Shown one piece after another: positions 5,479 through 44,004 of a stretch of 64,000 nucleotides of DNA (positions are counted from its first letter, which is position 1; the number at the start of each line of letters is the position of its first letter). The DNA lies in assembly GCF_001870515.1 (NCBI RefSeq), contig NZ_MDGT01000003.1, positions 874,842-938,841 on the forward strand, read 5' to 3'. The position numbers and the translations under genes were made by a program. The stretch comes from Idiomarina sp. MD25a. Its GTDB lineage: Bacteria; Pseudomonadota; Gammaproteobacteria; Enterobacterales; Alteromonadaceae. Below the pieces are notes generated by a model. That model was not told the DNA's origin, did no database searches, and saw only the letters and a list, made by a program, of their open reading frames with translations.

Positions 5479-5497
5479 CGTCTCGATCACTGGATAC

Positions 5498-5527
5498 AAA
5501 AAAGCCTCGCATTTGCGAGGCTTTTTT
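5498..5527. terminator. Bidirectional terminator between olsF-like gene and M28 peptidase
   Basis: GCCTCGC (5504-5510) and GCGAGGC (5515-5521) form a seven-pair stem with an ATTT loop, flanked by an A run and a T run. It can therefore serve both convergent genes. Confidence 0.88.
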
Positions 5528-5543
5528 CATTTAGGCGACTGTT

Positions 5544-7196
5544 TTAGTCTTTAAACTGCTTACCAAAGTAAGAGTCTTCTAACCAATGTGGACGCTGTGG
5601 ATCATTGGCGATTTCTTTACCGATTTCGTAGTTAATATCAGTAAAGCGCGTTGCTGATTCGTAGTTCACTTCTAGGTTGTGAAGGTCATCACTTGGACGG
5701 TGGTAGTTCTCAGCGAAGAATTTACCCCACACTTCACCGCCATCTTCACCTTCAGTGCGAGAAGTAAAGCCGGTCATTAAGAATACCGCGGGGATACCTT
5801 TTTTAACCAACGTGTAGTGATCTGAACGGGTAAAGATCGCTTGCTCAGGCATTGGATCAGGGCTTTGCTCAATATTGAACTTAGCGGCTGCTTTCGAAAC
5901 AGTATCACCCAGTGTTGAGTGTGATGCGCCAAACGCAATGACGTCAGCAAAATCATACAGCAGTACCGGCATATCCAAATTCACGTTAGCGACGATGCTA
6001 TTAAGTGGTACGGTTGGGTTATTAGCGAAGTAGTCAGCACCCAATAGACCTTTTTCTTCTGCGGTCACTGCCAAGAACATGATAGAGCGTTTGTTTTCTT
6101 GACCCGACTCAACAAACATACGTGCTGTTTCCAACATCACCGACACACCTGATGCGTTATCCATCAAGCCGTTATTGATGGTGTCATCGCTGCTTAAGTC
6201 TTTAACGACACCAATATGGTCTGCGTGAGCTGTGTATACCACGTACTCGTCTTTTAACTTCTCATCAGTACCCGGCAACACCGCCGCCACGTTAGGGCTG
6301 GTGGTTTCTTCGTGATTAGACTCTTTAGCTAAAGATACAGAGCCGTTTAGCGGGAAGCCTTTTGGTGAAGCGTTTGGATCTTCTTCGATCTGCTTAAAGA
6401 TAGCTTCCAGCGGCTGTTCAGCACCTTTAAACATCGCTTTACCCGCATCAATATTTACATAGGCAGAACCCATTAATTGCTGTTCTTCACCTTGCGGCAA
6501 GCCATTTGGACCAATCCAGGTCATACGAGGCGTTTTGGTGTAGTAAACACTGGTTTCGAACTCGCGCACTTTTTCACGCTCTGGCGTGTGCAATGTAATG
6601 ATACCGACAGCGCCTTTTTCGCGTGCGATATCACCTTTGATATTAGCTAGATGCGCACCTTCTTCGCTCGGTAAGTCTGCTGGACGACCTGTCAGCATAA
6701 CAACGATTTTGCCTTCAACATCAAGACCTGCATAATCGTCTAAGCCAAATTCAGGTGCTTCCATACCGTAGCCAACAAACACTAACGGCGCAGTGACTTC
6801 GCTTAACTGGCTATAGTGACTTGGACCTGTAATGAATTGTTTACCGAACGTAAGTTCTGTTGTTTCACCGTCAACGGTATATGACATTTTGGCACTGTTA
6901 GGTACCAACGTGCTGATTCTAAACGGGATACGTTGGAAATAGGTGCCATCTTCCCCTGCTGGTTGTAAGCCCATTTGCTTAAACTCAGAGGCGATATATT
7001 TAGCGGCGATTTCATGACCGCGGCTACCCGTCTCACGACCACGTAGGTCGTCACTTGCCAAGAACTCAAGATGCGCTTTGATGTTTTGTTTTTGCGCACT
7101 GACTTCAGGTGCTTGAGAAGTGGTTGTATCCTGACCACCACATGCTGCTAGCGACGCAGCTAACAGCGTGGGGATGAGCAAGCGTGTTACTTTCAT
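5544..7196 (-). CDS. M28 family zinc aminopeptidase lipoprotein with PA domain
   Basis: This 550-aa exported peptidase begins with a lipoprotein signal ending in the lipobox LAAC, with the acylated Cys at residue 19. A protease-associated domain lies near 145-260 (VFVGYGMEAPEFGLDDYAGL). The M28 metal-binding set follows in order: AHADHIG, DNASGV with the bridging Asp, AEEKGLLGAD with the catalytic Glu, and a final SDHY His. It would release N-terminal amino acids from peptides at the cell envelope. The gene is divergent from the zinc receptor gene, and the 175-bp spacer holds a Zur box, so zinc control of this zinc enzyme is possible but inferred. It is one of three exported peptidases within 10 kb. 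Confidence 0.88.
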   Translation of the reverse strand: MKVTRLLIPTLLAASLAACGGQDTTTSQAPEVSAQKQNIKAHLEFLASDDLRGRETGSRGHEIAAKYIASEFKQMGLQPAGEDGTYFQRIPFRISTLVPNSAKMSYTVDGETTELTFGKQFITGPSHYSQLSEVTAPLVFVGYGMEAPEFGLDDYAGLDVEGKIVVMLTGRPADLPSEEGAHLANIKGDIAREKGAVGIITLHTPEREKVREFETSVYYTKTPRMTWIGPNGLPQGEEQQLMGSAYVNIDAGKAMFKGAEQPLEAIFKQIEEDPNASPKGFPLNGSVSLAKESNHEETTSPNVAAVLPGTDEKLKDEYVVYTAHADHIGVVKDLSSDDTINNGLMDNASGVSVMLETARMFVESGQENKRSIMFLAVTAEEKGLLGADYFANNPTVPLNSIVANVNLDMPVLLYDFADVIAFGASHSTLGDTVSKAAAKFNIEQSPDPMPEQAIFTRSDHYTLVKKGIPAVFLMTGFTSRTEGEDGGEVWGKFFAENYHRPSDDLHNLEVNYESATRFTDINYEIGKEIANDPQRPHWLEDSYFGKQFKD

Positions 7197-29348: not shown

Positions 29349-30695
29349 TTAGTCTTGTTGGAACGGGTATACCGAACCGAGTTTTAAGATTTGCGTTAAC
29401 TCATCAAGCGCAGAACGCGACTCTTCGAGCAACGCAGGGTCACGTAAGTCGTCAACGGCAAGCTCTTCGCGATAGTGTTTATCAACCCACTGAGTTAAGC
29501 GTTGATACAGCTCATCGCTCATCAAACAGTTCGGATTAGCGGCTTTAAGCTCTTCGTCGTTGAGCGCTACTCGTAGACGTAAACAGGCAGGTCCACCACC
29601 GTTACGCATACTTTGTTTAACGTCAAAGAACTCAACGCGCTTGATAGGGTTATCGCGCTGCACCAGTGACTCAAGATAAGCTTTTACACGCGGGTTTTCT
29701 TGACACTCGGTCGGTGCAATGAGGGTCATGATGCCATCCGGCGGTGTAATCAACTGGGTGTTAAACAAATAAGTTGATACAGCGTCCTGTACGCTCACCT
29801 CATCGGTTTTAACTTCGATGAAGTGCACTGGGGTATCGCCAAACTTTTGTTGGATTTCAGCGAATTTCTGCTCGGTATTACGGAATGCCTGCTCGTGATA
29901 GAACAATACGTTTTGGTTACCCACGGCAATAACGTCGTTATGAAACACGCCTTGGTCGATAACATCGGGGTTTTGCTGCAGATAAACGGTGTTGTCATCA
30001 GTTAGACCATGCAAGCGAGCGATGGCTTGAGATGCTTCCAACGTTTGCCGCGCAGGGAACTTTTGCGGTGCAGGTTGGGTACTATCAAATGCGCAACGAC
30101 CGTAAGTAAAGATTTCAACACCGGCATGACCGTATTGTTCACATAAACGCGTGTGGTTTGCTGCGCCTTCATCGCCAAAGTGCTCGTTATCAGGCAGGTG
30201 AGTGTGATGCTCGAAATAACGTTCATGTGCAAACATGGCTTTAAGAATATTGCCACTGGTTACTGGCTCGAGTGAGCGGTGAAACTTATTCGTTAAGTTA
30301 GCCGGTGTAAAATGCACTTTGCCATTTGCTGTATCGGCACTGGGTGATACAGTCGCTGCGTTGGCGGTCCACATGCTTGATGCTGAGCATACCGCTTGGA
30401 AAATAGCCGGTGCTTCGGTTGCCGCTTTATATAATACTTCGCCATCGGTACCTGTGAAGCCCAGGCGTCGCAACGCATAAATATCTGGACGTTCTTGTGG
30501 CGCCAAAACACCTTGCTTCATGCCCATGTCGTGTAGCGCTTTCATCTTCATTAGCCCTTGTAGGGCGGCGCTTTTAGGGCTAGAAACAGCCTTTGCGTTG
30601 GCTAGCGAGGCAACGTTGCCGAATGACAAACCAGCGTAATTGTGAGTCGGACCGACAAGGCCGTCATAATTCACTTCAAAGTGTTGCATAGTCAC
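29349..30695 (-). CDS. astB: N-succinylarginine dihydrolase
   Basis: This 448-aa enzyme performs the second step of the arginine succinyltransferase pathway, releasing ammonia and CO2 from N2-succinylarginine to give succinylornithine. It opens with [21 protein letters not shown] and ends in the nucleophile region [16 protein letters not shown], both hallmarks of AstB. The GTG at 30695 lies nine bases after an AAAGGAG ribosome site; the ATG two codons later is 15 bases away and less likely. The other ast genes are not in the window, so the pathway must be split on this chromosome. Confidence 0.95.
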
Positions 30696-30992
30696 GTATT
30701 CGCGCTCCTTTCGGGGGGGCTACTGTTTAGCCTGATATGATCGAATTAGAATTATTATACGTTGTTAATAACGGCTTGTAAGCCTTTATTTTCGTGGGCT
30801 TACTGAAAATTATGAGAGTCTGACTGTTTATCTAAATTGTGCGAATTTTTATCAAATGCACAGGTTATGGTTGTTTCTTAAGAAAATAACCGATATATCT
30901 TAAAAAAGGCAGAATCATCGGGTTGCCACTTGTATTTCAGTGGTTATGAACCTATATCGTCTGACAGTTAAAGAAAAGAGAAGCTAAACTCT
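30696..30992. other. Divergent astB/topA intergenic region with several inverted repeats
   Basis: This 297-bp AT-rich spacer has no convincing ORF. It holds TAAGCC/GGCTTA (30779-30784 and 30797-30802). It also holds a nested palindrome, TTTCTTAAGAAA (30874-30885) inside GGTT...AACC (30869-30891). A weak topA promoter candidate is TTGCCA (30923) with TATGAA (30945) at 16-bp spacing, whose spacer contains CCACT/AGTGG. Regulatory roles are guesses. Confidence 0.4.
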
Positions 30993-33611
30993 ATGGCGAA
31001 ATCGCTCGTTATTGTCGAGTCCCCGGCAAAAGCCAAAACAATTAATAAATACCTGGGTAACGATTTTATCGTGAAATCCAGCGTAGGGCATGTGCGCGAC
31101 CTTCCTACCAAGGCGGTAGAAAAGGTACCGAGCAAATCGGCGGCGGAAGTCCGCAAAATGTCGCCGGAGGACAAAGCGGCGTACCAACAGCAACGAGACT
31201 TTAAACGTTTGGTTGCGCGAATGGGGATCGATCCCGAGCATGATTGGGATGCGCACTATGAAGTGTTGCCCGGTAAGGAAAAAGTAGTCAAGGAACTCAC
31301 TCAGCTCGCGAAAAAGTCGGACAAAGTTATCCTCGCAACGGATTTGGACCGCGAAGGGGAAGCGATCGCCTGGCACTTGCGTGAACTGTTGGGTGGCGAA
31401 AACGACCGATATCAACGTGTGGTTTTTAACGAAATTACCAAAAATGCGATCCAAGATGCTTTCTCGCACCCAGCACAACTCAACTTGGATCGCGTCAATG
31501 CACAACAAACACGTCGATTTTTAGACCGTGTTGTGGGTTTCATGGTATCGCCTTTGTTATGGAAGAAAATTGCCCGCGGGCTATCTGCCGGACGCGTGCA
31601 GTCCGTTGCCGTTCGCTTGGTGGTCGAACGCGAGCGTGAGATTAAAGCCTTTGTTCCGGAAGAGTATTGGGATGTACACGCGGATTTAGCCACACAAGCT
31701 AAAGACGATCTGCGCATGCAGGTCGTGAAGCAAGCCGGAGAGAGCTTCAGACCGGCGAACAAAGAACAGACTGACGCGGCATTGGCACAGTTAAAAGACG
31801 CCGAATACGAAGTTATTGCACGCGAAGACAAACCCACGTCGAGCAAGCCATCGGCTCCGTTTATCACTTCGACGTTGCAGCAGTCAGCCAGTACGCGTTT
31901 AGGTTTTGGTGTAAAGAAAACCATGACCTTGGCACAGCGCTTGTATGAAGCGGGTCACATTACCTACATGCGTACCGACTCAACTAATTTGAGTGCGGAT
32001 GCAGTGAGCGCGTGTCGTGATTACATAGAAAAGAGCTTTGGCGCTAATTACTTGCCGAAACAACCGAATCGCTATGGTTCAAAAGAGGGTGCACAAGAAG
32101 CGCACGAGGCGATTCGTCCTTCGGATGTGAATATCAAGGCCGATAAGTTGGGGAGCATGGATCGTGATGCTCAGCGCCTGTACGAATTGATTTGGCGTCA
32201 GTTTGTGGCTTGCCAAATGGTACCGGCAAAATACGATAGCACGACACTGATTGCGCAAGCGGGTGAGTTTGAGCTTAAAGCTCGTGGTCGCGTGATGCGT
32301 TTTGCGGGTTGGACCAAGGTGCTACCGCCGTCATCGTCGAAGAAAGACGGAGATATGACCTTACCTGATATCGGTAAAGGTGAAATCCTTGCACTCAACC
32401 AATTAGATCCGCAACAACACTTCACCAAGCCACCTGCGCGCTACAGTGAGGCATCGTTGGTAAAAGAGCTCGAGAAGCGTGGCATTGGTCGCCCTTCGAC
32501 CTATGCATCGATTATCTCAACGATTCAGGACCGCGGATACGTCAAGGTCGATAATCGCCGCTTTTTCGCCGAAAAAATGGGTGAAATCGTTAACGATCGA
32601 CTCATTGAAAACTTTACCGAGTTAATGAATTACAACTTTACCGCGGAGATGGAGCAGGCGCTCGATGACATTGCCGCAGGCAAACGTAATTGGAAAGAAA
32701 CGCTCGATAAGTTTTACGAGGACTTTAAAGCAAATCTCGAACAAGCCGAGCGCGACCCGAATGAAGGCGGTATGCGCGGCAACCAAATGGTCATGACCGA
32801 TATTGAGTGTCCTAAATGTGGTCGTGAAATGGGCATTCGCACGGCATCAACGGGTGTTTTCTTGGGTTGTTCAGGTTACAACTTGCCGCCGAAGGAACGC
32901 TGTACTCAAACGCTCAACTTAACGCCAGGCGAAGAGGCGGTGAAGGTCACTGACGAGGATGAGCGCGAGACTGAAGCACTGCGAGCCAAAAAGCGTTGCG
33001 CTAAATGCGGTACAGCAATGGATAGTTACCTCATTGATGAGAAGCGCAAGTTACATGTGTGTGGTAATAACCCCACCTGTGATGGCTACCTCATTGAGCA
33101 AGGTGAGTTTCGTATTAAGGGCTATGATGGGCCGACCATTGAGTGTGACAAATGCGGTTCGGAGATGCAGCTTAAGACTGGACGGTTTGGTAAATACTTC
33201 GACTGTACCAATGATGAGTGTAAAAACACGCGTAAGCTATTACGCAATGGTGAGCCCGCACCACCGAAAGAAGATCCCGTACCGTTGCCTGAGCTTCCGT
33301 GCGAGGATTCGGACGCGTACTTTGTGTTACGTGATGGCGCTTCAGGTATTTTCTTATCAGCGAACACCTTTCCTAAGTCGCGTGAGACGCGAGCGGTTAA
33401 GGTCAAGGAGCTTGCGCGGTTTAAAGACCGTTTGCCTGACAAGTTTAAGTATCTTGCCGAAGCGCCACAGGAAGATGACGAGGGTAACGAGGCTATCGTT
33501 CGCTTCTCGCGGAAAAACAAAGAGCAATACGTGGTGACCGAGGTCCATAAAAAGCAGACCGGTTGGAAGGCTCACTACAAGGGTGGCAAGTGGGTCATCG
33601 ATAAAAAATAA
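30993..33611 (+). CDS. topA: DNA topoisomerase I
   Basis: This 872-aa type IA topoisomerase relaxes negative supercoils. The TOPRIM domain carries the acidic triad in [10 protein letters not shown] near residue 112. The active-site Tyr325 lies in ITYMRTDST. Three C-terminal four-Cys zinc ribbons follow (CPKCGREMG near 608, CAKCGTAMD near 670, CDKCGSEMQ near 715), and then a basic tail. Length and layout match E. coli TopA. It is divergent from astB and ends at a strong terminator before the pilus locus. Confidence 0.96.
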
Positions 33612-33628
33612 TCCATCACTGACTAAAC

Positions 33629-33658
33629 GAAGGGGCGATCGGGTATCGCCCCTTTTTT
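33629..33658 (+). terminator. Rho-independent terminator after topA
   Basis: AGGGGCGAT (33631-33639) pairs with ATCGCCCCT (33645-33653) around CGGGT, followed by TTTTT. It separates topA from the pilus genes, so the latter need their own promoter. Confidence 0.92.
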
Positions 33659-33674
33659 ATGCGCTTTATAAAGT

Positions 33675-33696
33675 TTGGGGTATTGAATTAACCCAA
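33675..33696 (+). promoter_or_regulatory. Inverted repeat ahead of the pilus operon
   Basis: TTGGG (33675-33679) and CCCAA (33692-33696) flank an AT-rich centre, 13 bp before the first pilus gene and just after the topA terminator. It may be an operator or 5'-leader hairpin. No confident -35/-10 pair could be assigned in the 51-bp gap. Confidence 0.3.
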
Positions 33697-33709
33697 CTGA
33701 GTAAAGGTC

Positions 33710-34105
33710 ATGATCCTGCAAAAACTAACCTGCTATTTAGTGCTGATTGCCGCACTGACGAGTGGCGTGGCACCCATCAGTATGGCGCAAGATTGCCTAT
33801 CACTTGATTTAGGTCCCGCTGAGTTTGATCAGCCGATGCAGTGGCAATCACAAAGCCAGGGCGTTGCTGCGATGGTTAGAGCTGGGCTACTCGAGCCGCA
33901 GGTTATAAAGCTATTAAAGCAACATTTAGCGATTAAGGTTGTCGATTGGCAGGCGTCGCATCATCATCAATGGCCAACGGATTACTTGCTTGAGGCGGAC
34001 AATTGGCAAGGCTTTTTTACCCGTCTACTTAAGCCATTTGGTCTGCAACTCGTGCTCTACGCCAATCAAGGCGCCGTGGTGCGCTATCAGGAATCGCCGT
34101 TGTGA
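33710..34105 (+). CDS. Exported TcpQ/PilL-like type IVb pilus protein
   Basis: This 131-aa protein has a Sec signal peptide (residues 1-26, ending PISMAQ). Its C-terminal part (about 65-128) resembles the TcpQ C-terminal domain found beside type IVb pilus secretins: a VVDWQAS strand, then WPTDYLLEAD, then NWQGFFTRLLKPFGLQLVLY and VVRYQ. TcpQ-like proteins stabilise or localise the secretin, and R64 PilL has the same domain. An AAAGG ribosome site precedes the ATG. The stop codon overlaps the secretin GTG start (GTGA), which supports a shared function. The family call is by motif reading and position, not by search. Confidence 0.6.
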   Translation: MILQKLTCYLVLIAALTSGVAPISMAQDCLSLDLGPAEFDQPMQWQSQSQGVAAMVRAGLLEPQVIKLLKQHLAIKVVDWQASHHHQWPTDYLLEADNWQGFFTRLLKPFGLQLVLYANQGAVVRYQESPL

Positions 34106-35571
34106 GTTATTTGCGTGTTGTATCCACGTTGCTCGGCGGTCTGCTCTGCGTAGCGTGCAGTTATGACCCGGCTGCCCTTATCGCAGAGGCTGACGCCCTA
34201 GCCGAACAACAGCATCAGCATTTAGCGAGCGAATACGGCTATCAACTTGCCCCAGAACCACCAGAGATCGTGGTAAAGAGCGACCAGTTTTACGTACCTG
34301 CTTTGGCAAAAAGTTCGATAGATAAGCCGATTTGGTACAGCCAACCGTTACAAACGCAACTTAGTAAAGTCCCGTTGTTACAAGCGTTACAAACTGTTTT
34401 CACACCGCTCAATGTTGCGGTTTTACTCGATCCGGAAATTCAGCCCGATACGCTGATATCGAGTCATTTTACTGGCACAGTCGGCGAATGGCTTGCTTGG
34501 CTCAGTAATGGACAGCAGCTGTTTATTGAGTATGAACCCTATGCGGTTCATCTAAAGCGATATCAAGTAAAGCGTTATGATTTAGCGTTTCTAGCCGGTA
34601 TGACACAGTTTTCGCTGAATGAACAAGGTTCTCAGCGATCGTCTAACGACGCGGCAGGACAGCTGGGTTTTAAGTCAGGCGATAAACCGGCTTGGGATGA
34701 GCTGAAAGCCGCTATCACGCTAATGTTGTCTGATAGTGGCGAGGTCGCCCTCAACGCAAATGCCAGCGCCTTACTGGTGAAAGATACACCGAGTGTGATT
34801 AAGCAAGTGGATAGTTACATTGCACAGTTGAACAATAGTTTAACTCGACAAGTTGCATTAGATGTCCAAGTGGTCGAAATTCGCTTTAGCGATAACGAGC
34901 AATACACCGTTGATTGGTCGAGTGTCAGACGAAACAGTCAGGGCGCACCTTGGTTAACCTCTCAAAATGGTTCAGAAAATTGGCTGCAACAGGCCGCGGG
35001 ACGCTTTATTCTGAGCCCATTAAATGGTTCGCGTAATTCAGTTGAAGTGTTAGTGCAGGCGTTGCAAAAGCAGGGTCATGTCAAAGTGAGCCACCACCCG
35101 CGTTTACTGACATTAAACCACCAAATCGCTCAACTTTTGGTTGAAGAAGAGCAAGCTTATTTGGCTGAATCGGAAGTGAGTAGTACGCCTTATGTGGGAC
35201 AACAGCAGCGACTCAAACCGGGCCGCGTGACAACGGGATTCCGACTATTTGTACTGCCGAACATTCTAGAAAGAGATGTCTTGTTACATTTATCTTCTCA
35301 AATGAGTGCGTTGCAGGGCATGAGTGTGGTGCAGTCTGGCGATAACATGATTCAGACTCCCCATACCGCTCGCAAACACTTTTTCTTAAAGGCTTTGGTT
35401 GGTCACTCAGAAACTTTGTTGCTGACGGGCTTTCGAAATCAACAAACCGAAGCAGGCCGAACCCGTTCGGGGGTGAGCTGGCTACTGGGTGGTGGGCAGC
35501 AACAAAAGCAACAGAATAGTGAAACGCTACTACTCATTACTCCGCGCATTGTAGGAGTCGCGAATGAGTGA
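34102..35571 (+). CDS. Type IVb pilus secretin lipoprotein (PilN/BfpB-like)
   Basis: This 489-aa outer-membrane pore subunit has a lipoprotein signal ending in the lipobox CVACS (acylated Cys19). An N-terminal STN-like region (about 90-170, VPLLQALQTVFTPLNVAVLLDPEI), an N1-type segment (NASALLVKDTPSVIKQVDSYIAQL) and the secretin domain (from about 250, VALDVQVVEIRFSD, to LLLITPRIV) follow in the standard order. Being itself a lipoprotein is typical of type IVb secretins such as BfpB and R64 PilN. The GTG start overlaps the preceding stop by four bases, and the end overlaps the next gene by eight. Confidence 0.85.
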   Translation: MSYLRVVSTLLGGLLCVACSYDPAALIAEADALAEQQHQHLASEYGYQLAPEPPEIVVKSDQFYVPALAKSSIDKPIWYSQPLQTQLSKVPLLQALQTVFTPLNVAVLLDPEIQPDTLISSHFTGTVGEWLAWLSNGQQLFIEYEPYAVHLKRYQVKRYDLAFLAGMTQFSLNEQGSQRSSNDAAGQLGFKSGDKPAWDELKAAITLMLSDSGEVALNANASALLVKDTPSVIKQVDSYIAQLNNSLTRQVALDVQVVEIRFSDNEQYTVDWSSVRRNSQGAPWLTSQNGSENWLQQAAGRFILSPLNGSRNSVEVLVQALQKQGHVKVSHHPRLLTLNHQIAQLLVEEEQAYLAESEVSSTPYVGQQQRLKPGRVTTGFRLFVLPNILERDVLLHLSSQMSALQGMSVVQSGDNMIQTPHTARKHFFLKALVGHSETLLLTGFRNQQTEAGRTRSGVSWLLGGGQQQKQQNSETLLLITPRIVGVANE

Positions 35572-36631
35572 TTGGGTTACGCAAAGTTTTCGCTTGCGAC
35601 TGGGCAATAAGAAGCCATCACATAAGCAATTGTTAGCGACCGTTGCGCAGTGGAACTATCCCTACTGTGGTTTGGTGTTCTTCATGCAGCAGTGGTGGCT
35701 GAGTTTAAGTCACCAACCCGGCCTCGATATTTTATTTTGTGCGCGCAATGATTGGCCGCAGGAACGTATTTTCGGCTGGATTATTGCAGACATAAAGCCG
35801 GCTCGGTTAGTCGTTTGGCAAGGCGAACGGCTGGCTGCAATCGAACAGGGCGAAGTGGAAAGCTTAATTAAGCGCGTCGGTGTTTGGCAAACTGAATATC
35901 CGAAGTCTCAGAGCCCAGAGTATTGGTATTGGTGTTCGTGCCAACCTGCACCTGATGATTGGCCGGGATTGGTAATGCAGGAAAAACAATGTTCAGAAAG
36001 CTTCATTCGATTGGCGCCCGCGGAGCGCATGGCGAAACGTGTTTCCTCATTGATCAAGTGGACAGTGAGTTTTACTGCAATCGTTGTGTTGGCAGCGCTT
36101 GTTGGCTTCATAACGCTGTTTGACGCGCCGCAACATGACTCGAGCCAGATTGAGCCTAAGGTCGTCAAACAGCTCGATCATGTGCTGGTGATCGATAAAC
36201 TCGGGCAACTGATGAGTCGTCCGTATTTTGAGCGGCAACAGTTGGTGCAGATCGAAGTGGCGCGCTCGGGTATTCGTCTGACATGGCAGCAGGCGGCGAT
36301 ATCGAATACGTCGCCACGCTCTGCTATACGCCAAGAGACATTACCCGCGCCGTTAAAAGCTTATCAGGTATCGCAGAACAGTCAGCTGCTATCCAGCAAT
36401 GACCTATTAGATGACTATCGCCAACAGTTTTATGACGCGCAAATTGTTACCAAAGGTGCTACGCAATGGCAACTTACCTACGACATGATGTCTTATCGAC
36501 ACCTCCAACAATTAGCGGCGTGGCTGGCAATACACCCTGAACTGATACTTTCTTCCTTATCAATGAGGTACCAACATGGCTACTGGTCTGTGCAATGGAC
36601 GCTGGACTATCCGTTGGTTCAGCCCACTTAG
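35564..36631 (+). CDS. PilO-like pilin accessory protein (type IVb pilus)
   Basis: This 355-aa protein has a cytoplasmic N-terminal half, one transmembrane helix (about 163-185, FTAIVVLAALVGFITLF) and a periplasmic C-terminal half. This single-pass layout, lying between the secretin and the PilP/ATPase genes, is that of the R64 PilO accessory protein, which connects the ATPase side to the periplasm. Sequence conservation in this family is low, so the call depends on topology and gene order. The start overlaps the secretin by eight bases and has a GTAGGAG ribosome site. The end overlaps the next gene by 56 bases. Confidence 0.6.
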   Translation: MSDWVTQSFRLRLGNKKPSHKQLLATVAQWNYPYCGLVFFMQQWWLSLSHQPGLDILFCARNDWPQERIFGWIIADIKPARLVVWQGERLAAIEQGEVESLIKRVGVWQTEYPKSQSPEYWYWCSCQPAPDDWPGLVMQEKQCSESFIRLAPAERMAKRVSSLIKWTVSFTAIVVLAALVGFITLFDAPQHDSSQIEPKVVKQLDHVLVIDKLGQLMSRPYFERQQLVQIEVARSGIRLTWQQAAISNTSPRSAIRQETLPAPLKAYQVSQNSQLLSSNDLLDDYRQQFYDAQIVTKGATQWQLTYDMMSYRHLQQLAAWLAIHPELILSSLSMRYQHGYWSVQWTLDYPLVQPT

Positions 36632-36995
36632 TTTTGTTGTGTTGTGTTCATTTCCAGTGCTCGCGCAGCAACACGACATTGAAGCTGAATCTAAGCCAAA
36701 TGTGACACAGCAATGGCAAGCGGAGCTGCAAGCTTATCAAGATTGGCAAGCGGCAATGGAACACAAAAAGCGCGAGTTAGCCCTTGCGGAGTTGCAATTA
36801 AATTGGCTTAAAAAACAAGTGGAGATCGCTCATCAACAGCGGCTCTTACAACCGACAGTACGTAAAAAGGGGGTTGAACCGAGTAATTGTATTCGTGTAG
36901 CCAACCACGATTGGCAATTACAGCGTGATGCGACCCACTGGTATTGGGGATCGCTGATTGACGCAGAACATGACTCACAAAGGAGGTGCTTTTGA
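36576..36995 (+). CDS. Small periplasmic PilP-like protein
   Basis: This 139-aa protein has a signal peptide (about 1-30, ending FPVLAQQ), a Gln/Glu-rich helical stretch likely to form a coiled coil (about 45-85) and a short C-terminal region with two Cys residues that could pair in the periplasm. Signal, helix and compact tail match R64 PilP, an alignment or secretin-linked protein. The ATG has a good ATGAGG ribosome site inside the end of the PilO-like gene, giving a long 56-bp out-of-frame overlap. Function is inferred from position only. Confidence 0.55.
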   Translation: MATGLCNGRWTIRWFSPLSFVVLCSFPVLAQQHDIEAESKPNVTQQWQAELQAYQDWQAAMEHKKRELALAELQLNWLKKQVEIAHQQRLLQPTVRKKGVEPSNCIRVANHDWQLQRDATHWYWGSLIDAEHDSQRRCF

Positions 36996-36997
36996 TC

Positions 36998-38395
36998 ATG
37001 GAAGGTATTCCACAGCTCGATGCCAAAGCGCTTTATGGCTGTACGATTCATCCTGTTATCTTTCAATACTGTGAGATGCTGCTGAATCAGTGGCATCAAG
37101 AAGGGTGTGATGATAAGGCGGTGTTAGCGACGGAATCAGGACTTTTAGTCTGTTCGCCGCAGGCATTTAGGCAAGCAGTACTCGAGCGCGAAAACTTGGA
37201 AAAACTTTTACGCGACTACACTCAGCAGCCAGTGCAGTGTGCAGTCGCTGACGCGCGTGTGATTCGGGCCGCCATACTGACCTATCGTACAGGACGTCCG
37301 CAAGCCGAGCAGCAAGCCGAAGCGACCGATCAAACGCATGCTCAGCAATTACTTTCGGATTTAGTTGCTGAGGGGTTGGCTAAAGGAGCATCCGATATTC
37401 ATTTAAGATTCAGTAAGCACTTTTGTAGAACCTGCTATCGAGTAAAAGGGGTATTAGTCGACCATCACCAACGTAACCGTGAGGCAATGACCGAGGCGAT
37501 TGCCGCAGCGCTCAATACGCGCAGTCATGACTATAACCAAGTGTTTAATGAACAAAGTACCGATAGCGCGAGCTTATTGGTGCCGTTGAGTCGTGCTGAT
37601 AGTCAATTGTCGGAAATAAAAGTGCGGCTACAGAAATCACCGCTAAGCGATGGGTTTGCTGTTACGTTACGGCTATTGGCGACTGAGATATCGAGTGCTT
37701 TGTCGCTAGAGTCTTTGGGTTTTGAGCCAGACATTATCAAAGGCGTCGATTGCATGCTTCAACAAAATAGTGGCTTATTGCTCATTGTCGGGCCTACCGG
37801 ACAGGGCAAAACAACCACATTGGCAGCTATTCATCAACGCTTCAGTGAGTCGGCAAAGATTATTTCGCTCGAAGATCCTGTCGAGCTCAAACAACCCAAC
37901 GTTGAGCAACGTTGGATAGACTCAACGCGCGAAGAAGAGGGGTTTGCAAATGCAATTAAAATTGCGCTGCGGGAAGACCCTGACGTGATTTCGGTCAGCG
38001 AAATTCGTGATAATTCAACGGCCGCCGCGGCCATTCGAGCTGCGTTAACCGGTCATCTAGTGACCGCTACGCTGCATGCTAGCGATGCGTTATCGGCGCT
38101 AGAGCGACTCCGTGATCTCGGTTGTGCGCTAGAACAACTACTCACGCCAGGCGTGTTGCGAGGAATCATTGCACAACGCTTAACGTATCAACAGGGTCAG
38201 CCAAGGTTGGTTGCTGAGTATGTAGTGTTCGACCAGGTCGCTCGGCAATTTGCGTTGAGTCACGATTACGTGGGTTGGCGTGAACATCTTAAACGTTGCG
38301 GTTGGCGGAGCCTAGCTAAACGGGGAGCGGCGCAGGTCATTGCGGAAGCGCCACGCGAATACCATTACTCAGATGAAGGACCGCAGGCAAAATGA
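36998..38395 (+). CDS. Type II/IV secretion assembly ATPase (PilQ/GspE-like)
   Basis: This traffic ATPase of about 465 aa powers pilus subunit extrusion from the cytoplasmic side. It has Walker A GPTGQGKTTT (from about residue 265), an Asp box region LEDPVE, the Walker B segment REDPDVISVSEIRD (ending near 337; the usual Gly before EIRD is Ser) and the His box GHLVTATLHAS. It lacks the four-Cys zinc motif of many GspE/PilB proteins. The AGGAGGTG ribosome site (36981-36988) is followed by ATG 36998; TTG 36992 overlapping the previous stop is an alternative. The end overlaps the platform gene as ATGA. Confidence 0.88.
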   Translation: MEGIPQLDAKALYGCTIHPVIFQYCEMLLNQWHQEGCDDKAVLATESGLLVCSPQAFRQAVLERENLEKLLRDYTQQPVQCAVADARVIRAAILTYRTGRPQAEQQAEATDQTHAQQLLSDLVAEGLAKGASDIHLRFSKHFCRTCYRVKGVLVDHHQRNREAMTEAIAAALNTRSHDYNQVFNEQSTDSASLLVPLSRADSQLSEIKVRLQKSPLSDGFAVTLRLLATEISSALSLESLGFEPDIIKGVDCMLQQNSGLLLIVGPTGQGKTTTLAAIHQRFSESAKIISLEDPVELKQPNVEQRWIDSTREEEGFANAIKIALREDPDVISVSEIRDNSTAAAAIRAALTGHLVTATLHASDALSALERLRDLGCALEQLLTPGVLRGIIAQRLTYQQGQPRLVAEYVVFDQVARQFALSHDYVGWREHLKRCGWRSLAKRGAAQVIAEAPREYHYSDEGPQAK

Positions 38396-39411
38396 ACCGA
38401 ATGGGTAAGCAGCGCCAGTGGCAATGGGTAGAAGACTACTGCGTTTGGCTCGAGGATGGCAGTGGCCCTCGCGAAGCAGCTGAAGCGATGTGTACTCAAG
38501 CGGCCTATTTTAAATTGCGGCCAGAGCAAAAATTAGCTGAGCGATTGCAAATTGGTCTGAGACGCGGACAAACCATCGCGCACGCCTTACAGGGTGAACT
38601 TAAACGAGATTTATTAGAACTCTTCCTCATTGGTCAGCAATACAACTGCTTAACCGATCTACTTAACGATTACCGTGATGTGACGATCGAATTACAGCGG
38701 CTACGTTGGACGTTTTATAAACAATTGATGTACCCCGTATCTATTCTACTGACGGTATTGCTCGCCTATGCCTACGCAGCAAAGAGTTATTTACCCAAGC
38801 TTCTCAGTTATACCGCTACACAGCAAAACGACCCAGTTACGGAGGGGGTGATCGCGTTCGGTCGGCTTGTTGCTGATGGGTGGTGGTGGATGACGATGTG
38901 TCTCGTGGGTGCAATGTTTTGTTGGCGTTGGTTAGCGCACAATTGGGTGGGTATTCACCGCACACGAGTGGAACGCTATGGGATGTTTTCTCAATTCCGT
39001 GCGCTCAATGCGTTGTGGCTGACACGTTTGGTCGCACTTCTCATGCATCATCGCGTTGCACTCGATACTATTTTTGCTGTGCTGATTCGTGTGGCGTCAC
39101 CCTATGCGCGTTGGCACTTACAACGGATGCAACAGCGTCTGGCACAGGGGCGGGTGAGTCTAGCGGTGGTGCTCGATACCGGTTTATTGCTACCACGGCA
39201 ATTATTTCGGATAAGCCATCGACAACAGTTCAGTGGTCAACGGGAGGCGCTGATTAAAGTAGCGCAGCGAAGCTACGTTGATATTCAACGCAGTGTCGCT
39301 TATCAACAACGCCTATGGATTGCGTTGTGTTATCTGCTGATTACGGGCTTGTTGTTATTACTATTGAGTGCGGTTGGCAACACCATGATGCGCGTGATGA
39401 CGTCGATTTAA
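38392..39411 (+). CDS. Type IVb pilus inner-membrane platform protein (PilR/GspF-like)
   Basis: This 339-aa integral membrane protein has hydrophobic segments near 110-130 (LMYPVSILLTVLLAYAYA), 160-185 and 305-330, with two cytoplasmic helical repeats. This is the GspF/PilC plan, in which the platform binds the ATPase and the pilin. Position directly after the ATPase and before the pilin matches R64 pilR. The ATGA overlap with the ATPase indicates coupled translation. Confidence 0.8.
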   Translation: MNRMGKQRQWQWVEDYCVWLEDGSGPREAAEAMCTQAAYFKLRPEQKLAERLQIGLRRGQTIAHALQGELKRDLLELFLIGQQYNCLTDLLNDYRDVTIELQRLRWTFYKQLMYPVSILLTVLLAYAYAAKSYLPKLLSYTATQQNDPVTEGVIAFGRLVADGWWWMTMCLVGAMFCWRWLAHNWVGIHRTRVERYGMFSQFRALNALWLTRLVALLMHHRVALDTIFAVLIRVASPYARWHLQRMQQRLAQGRVSLAVVLDTGLLLPRQLFRISHRQQFSGQREALIKVAQRSYVDIQRSVAYQQRLWIALCYLLITGLLLLLLSAVGNTMMRVMTSI

Positions 39412-39432
39412 TCTTTGCAAGGAGCGATGGAG

Positions 39433-39876
39433 ATGCGAACGAAAGTTAAAGGATTCACTTTTATTGAGGTTTTGGCGGTGCTTAGCATTATAGCTATTGC
39501 GTCACTCGGCACGTTAGTGCTTCGAGACTGGGCTGTTGGTAATGCGCGCGTGTCGGAGGCAAAAAACGTAATTACCACGTTACAAGCGGGGGCGCAGATG
39601 TGGAAGCCAGCTAGTGGTGAGTTTACCGGCATCAGTATGACGGAGCTGAGCAATATTGGTGCGGTCCCTGCCGATTGGGCCGATGGTGTGGGTAAGAACC
39701 CTTGGGGGGGTGATATTATGATTGGCCCTGATACTGTAGATGCAACTAAGTATATTATTAGATTAACCAATGTTGGAAGTTCGGAGGAGGGTCAAAGACT
39801 CGTCCGTGACTATACCGATATTTCAGCGTTAACTTCATATGCCGATGGCGACTTTACAGTTACCTTCCAAGGCTAA
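39433..39876 (+). CDS. Type IVb major prepilin (PilS-like)
   Basis: This 147-aa prepilin has a seven-residue leader MRTKVKG followed by FTFIEVLAVLSIIAIASLG. Cleavage after Gly7 leaves an N-methylatable Phe at +1 and the required Glu at +5. The helix is followed by a TadG/PilS-like globular part with KNPWGGDI, and KNPWGG resembles the conserved NPWGG block of R64 PilS and related type IVb pilins. The ATG at 39433 lies eight bases after AAGGAG and gives the correct short leader; the upstream TTG 39415 and ATG 39427 do not fit the ribosome site. It is probably the main fibre subunit. No disulphide pair is visible. Confidence 0.85.
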   Translation: MRTKVKGFTFIEVLAVLSIIAIASLGTLVLRDWAVGNARVSEAKNVITTLQAGAQMWKPASGEFTGISMTELSNIGAVPADWADGVGKNPWGGDIMIGPDTVDATKYIIRLTNVGSSEEGQRLVRDYTDISALTSYADGDFTVTFQG

Positions 39877-40280
39877 TGCGTCATCAAGGTTTTAGTCTTT
39901 GGGAAGTGATACTCGCTGCTGCGGTACTTGCTGGTTTATGGCAGGTATCGCTCGCCTTTTGGCGTTGGCAGGAAAACCTCGAAACACGTTTACAGTGGCA
40001 ACAGCAGTTAATCATGTTGATTCAGGCGCAACGTGAGCATTATAGACGCTTCGGTCAGTTTGCGCTGACCGAAGCACAATTGGCGAGACAAGGGCGCTAT
40101 GTGATTCCTACTTGGCCGTTCGCAACTGCGTGGCGCTTTGTGCCGGATCCCTTTTATACAGAGCAATTACTGATGCGTACTCAACTTAAGGGGGTGCAGC
40201 CGAAACTGATGCTTGGCCAACATTTACCATTTGAACAGCAGGGCGATGAGGTTACGATTCGTGTTATGGGGACGCCGTAA
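39876..40280 (+). CDS. Minor pilin/pseudopilin
   Basis: This 134-aa protein starts MRHQG followed by FSLWEVILAAAVLAGLW, a short leader with Gly at -1, Phe at +1 and Glu at +5, then a hydrophobic helix. It is therefore a second prepilin-peptidase substrate. The rest is Gln/Arg-rich with no recognised fold. The ATG shares one base with the major pilin stop (TAATG). It probably acts as a minor pilin at the fibre tip or in initiation; that role is inferred. Confidence 0.7.
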   Translation: MRHQGFSLWEVILAAAVLAGLWQVSLAFWRWQENLETRLQWQQQLIMLIQAQREHYRRFGQFALTEAQLARQGRYVIPTWPFATAWRFVPDPFYTEQLLMRTQLKGVQPKLMLGQHLPFEQQGDEVTIRVMGTP

Positions 40281-40917
40281 AAAACCACAACAACAGCGGG
40301 GCCAAAGTTTAGTCGAGGCGGTCATTGTGCTGCCGTTAATGTTGCTGTTTGGTTTATTGCTGGCGCAGCTGCTTTACCTTTGGTGGGCACAACAAACACT
40401 GTTTGTCGCAAGTCAGTACGCTGCTCGGGTGGGCGCCATTAACCACGGCGAGAAACGACCGATGCGTGTCATTCTCGCGGCAACCATGGCAAGTTTGGTA
40501 CCTAAAGATAAAGACATTGAGAGTTGGCAAAACATACTTAAATCGGTTGCTGCTCAGCAATTGCACGGCTTAAAGTTTGCAAGCATTGAAGTGATACAGC
40601 CGACCGATGAGATGTTCAGTCAATTTAAAGAGCGTTATTACGATAGTGAAGCGCAGCAATGGATTGAAGAGATTCCAGTCGACCACTATTGGGCACGTCG
40701 CCGCGCGGCTGAAAATGAGGATGCATTTGTCGCTGCTACCACTTTGAAAATCGAGGTGACTTGGTGTCTCGAGCTTAACGTGCCCTTAGCCGATCGAGTA
40801 TTAGCGTCGCTGGCGCCTTTGTCAGCGCGTTGTCAATTAGCTCAGCAAGTCACAGGAGATAGCTTTTGGCCGTTAACGGCAACCGCTGAACATCGCATGC
40901 TTAGCGGCTACCGTTAA
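40246..40917 (+). CDS. TadE-like pilus-associated protein
   Basis: This protein of about 223 aa has a basic N-terminus and then QRG followed by QSLVEAVIVLPLMLLFGLLLAQLLYLWW. This TadE-type helix has Gly at -1 and Glu at +5, so it too may be cut by a prepilin peptidase. The remaining 170 residues are predicted to lie outside the membrane and are not recognised. ATG 40246 lies within the preceding gene (35-bp overlap). GTG 40261, nine bases after GAGG, is an alternative start. TadE-like pseudopilins belong to Flp/Tad systems, so finding one at the end of an R64-like set is unusual. Confidence 0.65.
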   Translation: MRLRFVLWGRRKKPQQQRGQSLVEAVIVLPLMLLFGLLLAQLLYLWWAQQTLFVASQYAARVGAINHGEKRPMRVILAATMASLVPKDKDIESWQNILKSVAAQQLHGLKFASIEVIQPTDEMFSQFKERYYDSEAQQWIEEIPVDHYWARRRAAENEDAFVAATTLKIEVTWCLELNVPLADRVLASLAPLSARCQLAQQVTGDSFWPLTATAEHRMLSGYR

Positions 40918-40933
40918 ATATCCTGCCGAGGTA

Positions 40934-41794
40934 CTAGGCGTGATCGTGGTACTCAACGCAAGCTTGAAGTGTATTCTCAATGAGTGAGGCGACCGTCATG
41001 GGGCCAACACCACCCGGTACTGGAGTAATCCAACCGGCTCGTTGCGCTGCGACTTCAAACTCGACATCGCCAGTTAATCGGCCATCGTTAAGGCGGTTCA
41101 TGCCGACGTCGATAACAATCGCTCCTTCTTTAATCCATTCGCCTGGAATAAACTCGGGTTTACCGACCGCCACCACCACAATGTCAGCGCGGCGTACGTG
41201 TTTTTCGAGGTCGTTAGTAAAACGATGGCACACCGTTGTAGTTGCGCCTGCTAATAATAATTCTAAACTCATTGGCCGGCCGACAATGTTTGAAGCGCCC
41301 ACCACCACAGCATTGAGTCCATGTAAATCAATCTGAGTGCTATCGAGTAGTGTGATGATGCCTTTCGGCGTACATGGGCGCAGCGCAGGAATACGCTGTG
41401 CTAGACGACCGACATTGTAGGGGTGGAAGCCATCGACATCTTTGTGCGGGTGAATGCGCTCAAGAATCGGGGTAGCATCTAATCCTGCCGGCAATGGAAG
41501 TTGTAACAAGATACCATCGATATCTGGGTTGTCGTTAAGCTCATCAATCAGTTGCTCAAGTGCTGCCTGCGATGTATCACTGGGCATATCATAGTCGAAA
41601 GAGCGAATACCGACTTGCTCGCAGGCGCGTCGTTTATTGCCCACGTAAACTTCTGATGCGGGATCTTGTCCAACTAAAACGACCGCTAACCCAGGTGCGC
41701 GTTTACCGGCGCTGAGACGTTCGTCAATTTGTGTTTTTACGGATGCTCTGATGTTTGCAGCGATTGCTTTACCATCAATTAGCTGTGCAGGCAT
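40934..41794 (-). CDS. folD: Bifunctional methylenetetrahydrofolate dehydrogenase/cyclohydrolase
   Basis: This 286-aa FolD interconverts 5,10-methylene-, methenyl- and 10-formyl-tetrahydrofolate with NADP. It has [20 protein letters not shown] with the catalytic Lys near 56, [10 protein letters not shown] near 98, [11 protein letters not shown] in the Rossmann domain, and the ending [18 protein letters not shown]. The ATG at 41794 has an AAGGG ribosome site; a TTG seven codons upstream is less likely. The pilus locus converges on it with a 16-bp gap and no clear terminator. Confidence 0.96.
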
Positions 41795-41948
41795 ATAGGG
41801 ACCCTTGCTTGTCAATGAAATTAGAATTGAAAAAGCTTTGAATGGCTTAGTAGTTTACCGTTATTTAAGGTGAAATGTCACTGATTGTCGGAATAATGGT
41901 CAGCTTGGCGCAAAAGTAGCCAAACAACCCGTTTTTGCCAAAAAAAGT

Positions 41949-41977
41949 TTGACGCATGGGAAACTTATGGGTAATAT
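41949..41977 (+). promoter_or_regulatory. Strong sigma70 promoter of the tRNA operon with GC-rich discriminator
   Basis: TTGACG (41949-41954), a 17-bp spacer and TAATAT (41972-41977) are followed by a C/G-rich discriminator (CGCCCCCG), the feature associated with stringent (ppGpp/DksA) control of stable RNA promoters. It lies about 50 bp before the first tRNA and points toward it. Confidence 0.85.
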
Positions 41978-42026
41978 TCGCCCCCGTTGTCAGGCAGCAT
42001 TGTCTGTCACCGCCACAAGTCAAAAT

Positions 42027-42103
42027 CGGCGAGTAGCGCAGTTTGGTAGCGCACTTGGTTTGGGTCCAAGGGGTCGCTGGTTCGAATCCAGTCTCGCCGA
42101 CCA
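42027..42103 (+). tRNA. tRNA-Pro(TGG), copy 1
   Basis: This 77-nt cloverleaf has acceptor CGGCGAG paired with CTCGCCG, an anticodon stem CTTGG/CCAAG with loop TTTGGGT (anticodon TGG at 42061-42063), the T loop TTCGAAT and an encoded CCA. It is the first gene of a four-tRNA operon and identical to the fourth. Confidence 0.97.
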
Positions 42104-42135
42104 TTTTGACTTTAGGGTAGCAGGAATGTTCGATT

Positions 42136-42212
<77 letters not shown>

Positions 42213-42239
42213 GAACGCGCCATGAAGATTCAATACAGT

Positions 42240-42316
42240 GGTGGGTGTAGCTCAGTTGGTAGAGCCCCGGATTGTGATTCCGGTTGTCGTGGGTTCAAGT
42301 CCCATCATCCACCCCA
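42240..42316 (+). tRNA. tRNA-His(GTG)
   Basis: This is a 77-nt tRNA including the extra 5' G(-1) that pairs with C73, the identity element of tRNA-His. The acceptor is GTGGGTG/CATCCAC with one G-T pair. The anticodon is GTG in loop ATTGTGA/T. CCA is encoded. The T loop reads TTCAAGT. Confidence 0.96.
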
Positions 42317-42346
42317 CTTCTTCTCTTCTAAATCCTTTATTAAAAT

Positions 42347-42423
42347 CGGCGAGTAGCGCAGTTTGGTAGCGCACTTGGTTTGGGTCCAAGGGGTCGCTGG
42401 TTCGAATCCAGTCTCGCCGACCA
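42347..42423 (+). tRNA. tRNA-Pro(TGG), copy 2
   Basis: This is identical over all 77 nt to the copy 320 bp upstream; identity extends five bases 5' of the gene (42342-42423 against 42022-42103). The anticodon is TGG and CCA is encoded. It is the last gene of the operon; no clear hairpin terminator follows. Confidence 0.97.
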
Positions 42424-42485
42424 CGCTTCAACTGAATAAATACTAATCATTGTTCCTGTCTGCGTCAGCACTTCAGAATTCACTC

Positions 42486-42514
42486 TCGACTAATCGCCTT
42501 CGACTCGCTATAAT
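42486..42514 (+). promoter_or_regulatory. Sigma70 promoter of tig
   Basis: TCGACT (42486-42491), a 17-bp spacer and a perfect TATAAT (42509-42514) lie in the 222-bp gap between the last tRNA and tig. They predict an untranslated leader of about 125 nt. Confidence 0.7.
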
Positions 42515-42645
42515 GCTGCGTCATTTTTAAAGGATAACGCCGTTGTTTGCGTTAAAGTGGCTTGGATTACATTCAACTGGTGTGAACTAAGTTAGTTTTT
42601 AAGGGCAGGCAACACTTCACTGATTGAAACCGAGGTAAAAAGGCA

Positions 42646-43944
42646 ATGCAGGTTTCTGTAGAGACAACACAAGGTTTAGAACGTCGTGTGACGATTACGG
42701 TACCGGCGGACGTTATTGATAACGAAGTAAAACGTTTATTAAAAGAAGAATACCGTCACCGCCGTGTGAATGGATTCCGTAAGGGAAAAATTCCTCCACA
42801 CGTATTGCAGAAGCTATTTGGTCGCGAAGCACGCTCTCGTGCCGCTTCTGGCGTAATGCAGAGCAAATACTACGAAGCAATCATGCAGGAAAAAATTAAC
42901 CCTGCAGGTGCGCCGGCGATCGAGCCTAAAGTTAACGAACCAGGTCAAGACCTAGAGTTTACTGCAACTTTTGAAGTATACCCAGAAGTTGAGGTTAAAA
43001 ACCTCGACAAAATCGAGATTGAAAAGCCAGCCGTTGAAGTCACTGACGCGGATGTCGATAGCATGCTAGAGACATTGCGTAAGCAACACGCGGGCTGGAA
43101 AGAAGTTAAGCGTAAGTCAAAAGATGGCGATCGTGTCACTATGGACTTCGTTGGCTCGATTGATGGTGAAGAGTTTGAAGGCGGTAAAGCGTCTGACTTT
43201 GCGCTTGAACTGGGTGAAGGCCGCATGATCCCTGGTTTTGAAGACCAAATTAAAGGTATTAAAGCAGGCGAAGAGAAAACCATCGAGGTGACTTTCCCTG
43301 AGGACTACCATGCGGAAAACCTGAAAGGCAAAGAAGCACAGTTTGCTGTAACCGCGAAGAAAGTTGAAGAGCGCGAGTTGCCAGAACTCAACGACGAGTT
43401 CGTTGCTTTGTTCGGCGTTAAAGAAGGCGGTGTTGACGCGCTGAAAGCTGAAGTTCGTAAAAATATGGAACGTGAGCTGAGCAACACGGTTAAAAGCAAG
43501 GTAAAAGAGCAAGTATTGAAAGGCATCGTTGAGCAAAACGAAGTTGAACTGCCAAAAGCGATGATCGATCAAGAAATCGACGCATTGCGTAAGCAGGCAG
43601 CACAACGTTTTGGCGGCAATGCAGAGCAAATGCCTGACTTACCAGCTGAGCTGTTCGAAGAGCAAGCGAAAGAACGCGTTAAAGTGGGTCTTTTATTAGG
43701 CGAAGTTATTCGTACTAACGAAATGAAAGCAGAAGACGAGCGCGTTGATACCATCATCGCTAATGCCGCTTCAGCATACGAAGATCCGCAAGAAGTTATC
43801 GAGTACTACAAGTCAAACAACGACATGATGCAGCAGATTCGCAACGTTGCACTTGAAGAGCAAGCGGTCGAGTTTGTACTTGAGCAAGCAAAAGTGACAG
43901 AGAAGAAAGCGAGCTTCGATGACATCATGAACCCTAAGCAATAA
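42646..43944 (+). CDS. tig: Trigger factor
   Basis: This 432-aa ribosome-associated chaperone and prolyl isomerase has three domains. The N-terminal ribosome-binding domain has the signature [11 protein letters not shown] (about 44-54), where E. coli has GFRKGKVP. The central FKBP-type PPIase domain (about 150-245) includes [17 protein letters not shown] and [11 protein letters not shown]. The long helical C-terminal domain binds nascent chains. Length matches E. coli (432 aa). It starts the tig-clpP-clpX-lon-hupB-ppiD block. Confidence 0.97.
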
Positions 43945-43974
43945 TCTATCCGTTAGGATAAATCGACGGAGCCC

Positions 43975-44004
43975 TTGACGAGCTCCGTCTGTGCTTGGTT
44001 TAAT
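43975..44004 (+). promoter_or_regulatory. Candidate clpP promoter nested between two hairpins
   Basis: TTGACG (43975-43980), an 18-bp spacer and TTTAAT (43999-44004) match the sigma70 consensus at five of six positions each. The -35 lies in the loop of hairpin 43965-43989, and the -10 abuts the tig terminator. The predicted start near 44011 falls inside the terminator's left arm, so a new transcript would lack most of that arm. Confidence 0.55.

Follow-up and report, generated by a model that had tools for sequence, protein, structure and literature searches.

What kind of machine is encoded by the nine tightly packed genes that lie between topA and folD in Idiomarina sp. MD25a, how long has it stood there, and why is its last gene found alone in related genomes? 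The window, i.e. the whole stretch of 64,000 nucleotides that was analysed (assembly GCF_001870515.1, contig NZ_MDGT01000003.1), belongs to a genome of 2.68 Mb in seven contigs. By the list of open reading frames (ORFs) and the sequence itself, nine open plus-strand ORFs, here called g1 to g9, fill its positions 33710-40917, flanked by topA and folD. We propose that this locus is a chromosomal type IVb pilus operon of the R64/PilN type, intact and ancestral at the topA-folD site, and we give this reading, which is drawn from sequence comparison, a probability of about 0.8. The packed nine-gene arrangement reported in a preliminary description of the window was confirmed and, because the same order of ORFs recurs in 15 other loci, the set is not a chance one; in the distant ones among these loci g3, g4 and g8 were assigned by place, tblastn being not always successful. 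What that description missed is the separate fate of the TadE-like gene g9, which survives alone in a sister clade.

We scanned the nine proteins against family profiles. Pfam gave matches above cut-off (bits, with the cut-off in brackets) to Secretin for g2, 57.2 (27.5), to T2SSE for g5, 197.3 (24.9), and to T2SSF for g6, 36.7 (25.2); among the pilin genes we found N_methyl, 26.9 (21.2), PilS, 22.2 (22.0, a marginal score), and TadE, 30.4 (22.9), which bears out the Secretin, T2SSE, T2SSF, PilS and TadE assignments made earlier from the letters alone. The best NCBIfam match of g2 was TIGR02520 PilN (E 1.6e-53, 182 bits), with MshL as runner-up (3.3e-28); its hhalign match to PilN reached 100% (E 2.5e-65), and the PDB structure closest to its family profile was BfpB (E 3.1e-48). 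As single sequences, proteins 1, 3, 4 and 8 had no Pfam or NCBIfam match above cut-off; since single sequences could not show the identities TcpQ-like, PilO-like and PilP-like, these required family profiles. For this purpose, profiles were built on the homologous loci, 15 or 16 in number (alignments A1, A3, A4 and A5 hold 14 of the 16 loci, A2 and A8 hold 13), and run through hhalign against proteins of the R64 group and of marine plasmids picked by gene position. In such conditions, g5 matched PilQ at 100%, g6 matched PilR at 99.9% and g7 matched PilS at 98.4-99.5%. The g1 profile reached 98.0% with its positional equivalent from three marine plasmid loci, g3 reached 90.4% with the marine PilO-position proteins and g4 reached 82.7% with the PilP-position ones; g3 and g4 were best on the diagonal, and all off-diagonal matches of g1-g7 were at 2% or less. 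Each of g1-g7 thus finds its best profile match in the protein that holds the corresponding place in the R64 order, in agreement with the type IVb, R64-like order up to the pilin that had been proposed. PilS was also matched by g8, at 91-92%, and by g9 at 8.4%.

Weak domain matches concerned STN in 4 of 14 g1 homologues (best 0.0014) and GspL_C in one of 13 g3 homologues, while PilO2 (PF06864) was found in none of 13 g3 family members; profile searches of the PDB gave nothing for g9, a match ascribed to chance for g1 and, for g3, GspL at E 0.27. The g3 alignment does not include the row of genome G087, whose PilO-like frame has an in-frame stop about midway (locus L108, flipped coordinates 4816-5952). 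In systems of this kind it is mostly the pilin that varies. Here g7 is the most conserved protein, with a mean identity within Idiomarina of 65.8%, compared with 51.1% for the secretin and 25.4% for the PilO-like protein. By tblastn, the pilins of G005, G004 and G012 are 96%, 93% and 80% identical to that of the window, although the rest of the G012 operon, eight genes, is 85-95% identical to that of the window; the low value for the G012 pilin suggests an allele swap through recombination.

The eighth gene had been called a minor pilin, in a locus said to hold no recognisable adhesin. The pilin part of that call stands, its identity can be refined, and the statement on the adhesin has to be given up: judged by its homologues, g8 is a relative of the shufflon adhesin PilV, truncated in the window. 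The window's own g8 matches no Pfam family on its own; Shufflon_N was detected in 5 of 14 g8 homologues (E up to 0.1, best 6e-6), and the g8 profile retrieves the R64 PilV ORF at 9.2e-10 and a 688-amino-acid Alteromonas plasmid protein at 1.2e-48. The ORF is 238-404 amino acids long in 8 of 16 loci, with a distal part that ends in W..C...G.C; in eight Idiomarina loci, that of the window included, it is reduced to 134-135 amino acids, which would take two truncation events according to a topA+folD tree and one according to a tree of the pilus genes. PilV of plasmid TP114 works as an adhesin, according to the accessible part of PMC9045228.

The way in which such a pilus would be built can be outlined by homology. 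Prepilin sites with Glu5 are present in g7 in 16/16 loci, in g9 in 26/26 (three of them with Ala for Gly before the cut) and in g8 in 12/16, the residue being missing in the other four. As already described, neither a prepilin peptidase nor a transglycosylase family occurs among the nine proteins (ORF list, Pfam), and the genome has one Peptidase_A24 match, outside the locus. No integrase was seen among the proteins of the interval by the same means (the interval was not scanned for inverted repeat cassettes), and the locus has no retraction ATPase. We infer that the prepilins g7, g8 and g9 would be cut by the single Peptidase_A24 enzyme, and that assembly would be R64-like: the PilQ ATPase g5 would power polymerisation on the PilR platform g6, within the PilO/PilP frame of g3 and g4, and the fibre would exit by way of g2, the PilN secretin, together with the TcpQ-like g1. 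The product would be a thin pilus that serves adhesion or aggregation and has g8 and g9, in our view, at or near its tip.

We therefore consider how far the operon extends among relatives. Nine of the 19 Idiomarina genomes, own included, have it between topA and folD. In 147 sampled genomes of the family, it stands at the same site in 4/4 genomes of genus g27 and 3/3 of genus g11, which we provisionally take to be Pseudidiomarina and Aliidiomarina. A g9 match was obtained in 11 of the 147 genomes, all within these three genera. The g1 profile matched at least 4 of 394 genomes of the order, one in each of the three genera plus a weak match in G308 (2.6e-5), and the secretin profile at 1e-50 matched at least 14 of 369 genomes of the class, own included. 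In stretches examined from 12 of the 13 other secretin-matching genomes, related g1-g4 or fuller loci occur, some of them ended by contig edges. In none of these 12 stretches, nor in eight plasmid loci, was g9 the best match. The core of the operon is thus more widespread, and the addition of g9 was seen only in the three genera.

The ten pilus-less Idiomarina genomes form one clade (ultrafast bootstrap 100) nested among pilus-bearing genomes, and thus fit one loss. At their site g1-g8 are gone (not found by tblastn), and g9 is open in 10/10, with its start in frame in all ten. For this orphan g9, the ratio of non-synonymous to synonymous rates (dN/dS, NG86; many pairs were saturated, with no dS and hence no ratio) is 0.04-0.14 in 12 pairs, and its cysteines and prepilin site are preserved; TadE is matched by 13 of 14 g9 homologues. 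Judging from these sequences, the orphan must be under purifying selection and must do something without this pilus machine; reuse by another filament machine is our guess. That a TadE-like minor pilin outlived its own machine, keeps a CsrA-type leader and presumably serves another type IV filament machine is a proposal to which we give even odds.

The strongest competing explanation is that g9 is a component of the Tad pilus encoded away from the Tad locus, the type IVb operon being a mere neighbour, which would explain how g9 outlived the operon. The host genome has a compact Tad locus (L105, 3203-11422; contig C3, about 1.029-1.037 Mb) with a Flp-like ORF, RcpC, an RcpA-like secretin, a TadA-type ATPase, two T2SSF genes and a tetratricopeptide repeat protein. 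None of its 10 scanned ORFs matches TadE at 0.01 (three match no family) and a TadA-type ATPase is present in 18/19 Idiomarina genomes at 1e-40, both of which speak for this explanation. However, the genome without a TadA match, G008, has an open g9, and the Tad locus has a pilin-like ORF with a Glu5 site of its own (by eye). We regard the Tad explanation as a minority possibility, rather improbable but to be kept in mind. In G007 the secretin search gave a single weak match (1.0e-4), and this genome may therefore lack MSHA (the mannose-sensitive haemagglutinin pilus), an indirect indication. Far less probable is that the orphan is a functionless, decaying leftover: only distant secretins were found in the pilus-less genomes, tblastn recovered no g1-g8 at the site, no ATPase was seen at 1e-40 in the two pilus-less genomes among the matches listed, and a terminator-like stem lies inside the ORF, but a frame open in all ten genomes, its start preceded by a strong Shine-Dalgarno sequence, together with the low dN/dS and the preserved cysteines and prepilin site, is not what decay would leave.

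The leader of the operon seems to have stayed in front of the orphan. We observed that a GGA-loop hairpin covers the Shine-Dalgarno sequence of whichever gene comes first, g1 or orphan g9, in 22/26 genomes (stem of at least 3 pairs, G-U allowed), as against 28/141 control starts; with at least 4 Watson-Crick pairs the figures are 18/26 and 13/141. The control starts were guessed mechanically in 18 loci, pilus loci among them, and several of these are homologous. Stem bases vary in matched pairs between lineages, and csrA is present in 8/8 genomes examined. According to the accessible text of PMC7652899, the CsrA/RsmE pattern consists of ANGGAN hexaloops and of an upstream hairpin site bridging to the Shine-Dalgarno site. 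The window and its three nearest kin have no GGA hairpin (0/4) and carry instead a terminator-like stem after topA, a form present only in G000, G012, G005 and G004 among the 26 leaders compared; that stem-loop was absent from the output of a promoter/terminator scan, whose counts were close to shuffle means. The leader thus looks, from its sequence, CsrA-repressed in most sampled relatives, and not in the window's own clade. Several points tell against CsrA control. Ten of the leaders are near-identical orphans, so that 18/26 reduces to 7/12 lineages by our grouping; the upstream hairpin with a GGA loop was seen by eye in only 8/22 hairpin-bearing leaders, and in none of G011 and the orphans; and the minimum-energy folds of the G003, G013, G016, G087 and G146 leaders pair the Shine-Dalgarno region with distant bases. 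The N-terminus of the orphan g9 is new and includes a terminator-like stem: in 10/10 genomes (orphan loci L095-L104), 30 bases after the start of the ORF (for example L099 from 3313), there is an eight-pair GC-rich stem followed by a tail rich in T, within codons 11-18. This stem and the GGA hairpin over the start could form an attenuator tied to translation. Rfam gave only tRNAs and below-threshold matches in the ten pilus-less loci.

The operon was probably already present between topA and folD in the ancestor shared by the three Idiomarinaceae genera. A tree of pilus proteins (g2, g5, g6, g7) and a tree of topA+folD both recover genus g11, genus g27, the window group and the G003 group, and both unite the last two. 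For the pair G000-G012, dN/dS of g1-g8 is 0.05-0.26. The preliminary description had taken the block for an acquired module, and a capture of a mobile or plasmid pilus module by this strain in recent times could find support in the nearest outside relative, which by the ATPase tree and the g8 profile is on an Alteromonas plasmid, in the patchy presence within the genus (9/19) and in the few genomes with a g9 match. The comparison of the topA-folD interval in relatives contradicts this for the present strain, since the site is common to three genera, the main tree groups are concordant and the pilus-less clade is nested; nor does composition give a foreign signal, the GC content being 49.4% over 33710-40254 and 48.3% over the window (codon usage was compared as GC content at the third codon position of single genes). 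Recent acquisition was accordingly rejected, and we consider it very unlikely. An old capture by the ancestor of the three genera is possible. The folD match of G013 (L048) contains one in-frame TAA.

We also placed the ATPase in a tree with others of its kind. The Idiomarinaceae g5 group is separated at 98 and adjoins PilQ of an Alteromonas plasmid (95), whereas a support of 99 joins GspE with the MSHA-linked ATPase elsewhere in the tree; g5 is also apart from the PilB-like, PilT and TadA-like ATPases of the same genome. Of the labels checked, GspE, PilT and MshL scored above cut-offs, TadA-like denotes a best match to TadA below cut-off, and the MSHA-linked and PilB-like ATPases were named from their neighbourhood. 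The ATPase is thus distinct from those of type II secretion and MSHA, as the earlier reading required. That these genes are a divergent form of an MSHA or type II secretion locus, for which the second NCBIfam match of the secretin (MshL) could speak, is the least credible alternative, because the genome has a separate MshL above cut-off with an ATPase about 3 kb away (C3:284-289 kb) and a separate GspE above cut-off (C3:467 kb), those ATPases pair away from g5, and the locus is related to PilN, PilS and PilV. This identity was rejected on the NCBIfam results, the ATPase tree with its checked labels and BfpB as best PDB match. By the Pfam scan and the ATPase tree, the locus is likewise without a Flp pilin, a TadA-type ATPase and a second platform gene.

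Other observations weigh against an ancestral R64-type operon as proposed here. The ATPase tree leaves g5 and the R64-group PilQ unjoined; GspE and the MSHA-linked, PilB-like, PilT and TraJ ATPases split from the rest at only 54, and the Shewanella PilQs group with the long TadA branch at 59. The secretin is below the curated PilN cut-off (182 versus 287.65 bits). With R64-group profiles g3 and g4 match weakly (13.9% and 14.5%, about 14%) and g1 does not (2.4%); the identities of g1, g3 and g4 lean on marine plasmid proteins that were assigned by position and carry the annotation hypothetical. With single Hydrogenophaga proteins, hhalign gave no match. The two trees differ on G016 versus G017 (76 for topA+folD, 100 the opposite way for the pilus), inside the window group (G000+G005 at 87 versus G000+G012 at 100) and inside genus g27 (85 versus 93). 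An AlphaFold model of g9 from four sequences is poor (mean pLDDT 55.7), and tip placement, processing, adhesion and CsrA control are matters that we infer.

Coordinates of the features are collected below. Gaps between neighbours, in nucleotides and with the ATPase counted from 37001 and the TadE-like frame from 40255, are +98 (topA-g1), -4 (g1-g2), -8 (g2-g3), -56 (g3-g4), +5 (g4-g5), -4 (g5-g6), +21 (g6-g7), -1 (g7-g8), -26 (g8-g9) and +16 (g9-folD). By eye, the probable starts of the ATPase, the pilin and the TadE-like protein are the ATG codons at 36998, 39433 and 40246; with the last one the g8-g9 overlap is therefore 35 nucleotides. The look-out for integrases covered 30000-44000. At gathering threshold, Rfam found nothing but tRNAs in the window, and four tRNA genes (Pro, Arg, His, Pro) lie beyond folD at 42027-42423.

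Features of the topA-folD interval in the window (a slash marks the predicted prepilin cut)
Feature	Positions	Strand	Basis
Terminator-like stem-loop with T run of topA	33630..33658	+	by eye
g1, TcpQ-position protein, signal peptide and conserved DWQAS..HQWPT region	33710..34105	+	alignment A1, hhalign
g2, PilN/BfpB-type secretin, lipoprotein-like signal	34102..35571	+	Pfam, NCBIfam, hhalign, PDB
g3, PilO-like inner-membrane assembly protein, fast evolving	35564..36631	+	hhalign
g4, PilP-like periplasmic protein, fast evolving	36576..36995	+	hhalign
g5, PilQ-type assembly ATPase, Walker A GPTGQGKTT	36998..38395	+	Pfam, hhalign, tree
g6, PilR-type platform protein	38392..39411	+	Pfam, hhalign
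g7, PilS-type major pilin, prepilin site G/FTFIE	39433..39876	+	Pfam, hhalign
g8, PilV-derived minor pilin without distal part, 134 amino acids	39876..40280	+	homologue scans, profile search
g9, TadE-like pilin-domain protein, prepilin site G/QSLVE	40246..40917	+	Pfam, homologue scan

Four known systems can be compared with this locus. The R64 thin pilus (IncI1 pil operon, L121) shares the order of a PilL/PilM region, PilN, PilO, PilP, PilQ, PilR, PilS and later PilV, but the Idiomarina interval is without the transglycosylase, prepilin peptidase, shufflon integrase and conjugation genes, has PilV shortened to 134 amino acids and adds the TadE-like gene. On plasmid pASTE61-200 of Alteromonas stellipolaris (L119), which has the nearest ATPase in the tree, the g1-g7 order is followed by a PilV-like protein; it differs in being plasmid-borne, with a second prepilin-like gene, a PilV-like protein of 688 amino acids and no g9 match. 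The Tad/Flp pilus resembles the locus by the TadE domain of g9 and differs from it by its Flp pilin, its TadA-type ATPase and its two platform genes instead of one; the Tad locus of this genome is separate (C3, about 1.03 Mb). Finally, Tfp7 of Burkholderia pseudomallei is, in the accessible text of PMC3984277, a chromosomal, nine-gene, R64-type locus, genus-wide and with an operon list without a prepilin peptidase; it differs in gene order and in length (9.6 kb), and the same text lists PilM2 and PilV2 and no TadE-like gene. There, prepilin peptidase and transglycosylase are given as variable in the R64-type family (PMC3984277). The shufflon and rci, too, vary within this family. The suggestion that such a minimal chromosomal form may be undescribed has thus to be withdrawn, because a nine-gene R64-type locus has been described, as far as the accessible part of PMC3984277 goes. 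Among the papers listed on Idiomarina, type IVb pili, TadE, PilV and CsrA, titles and abstract openings were without this locus or the orphan, most subscription papers being outside that coverage.

The course of events that we propose is that one sister clade would have lost g1-g8, leaving the leader in front of g9. The locus would then show a likely order of erosion of a chromosomal conjugation-type pilus, beginning with the shortening of PilV by its distal part, followed by the disappearance of the machine from one clade, where a single pilin-domain protein is left. Its leader is a testable CsrA target common to the operon and to its orphaned last gene, and the orphan g9 offers a clean test of the exchange of minor pilins between filament systems. 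If its reuse is true, pilins would be transferable from one filament system to another.

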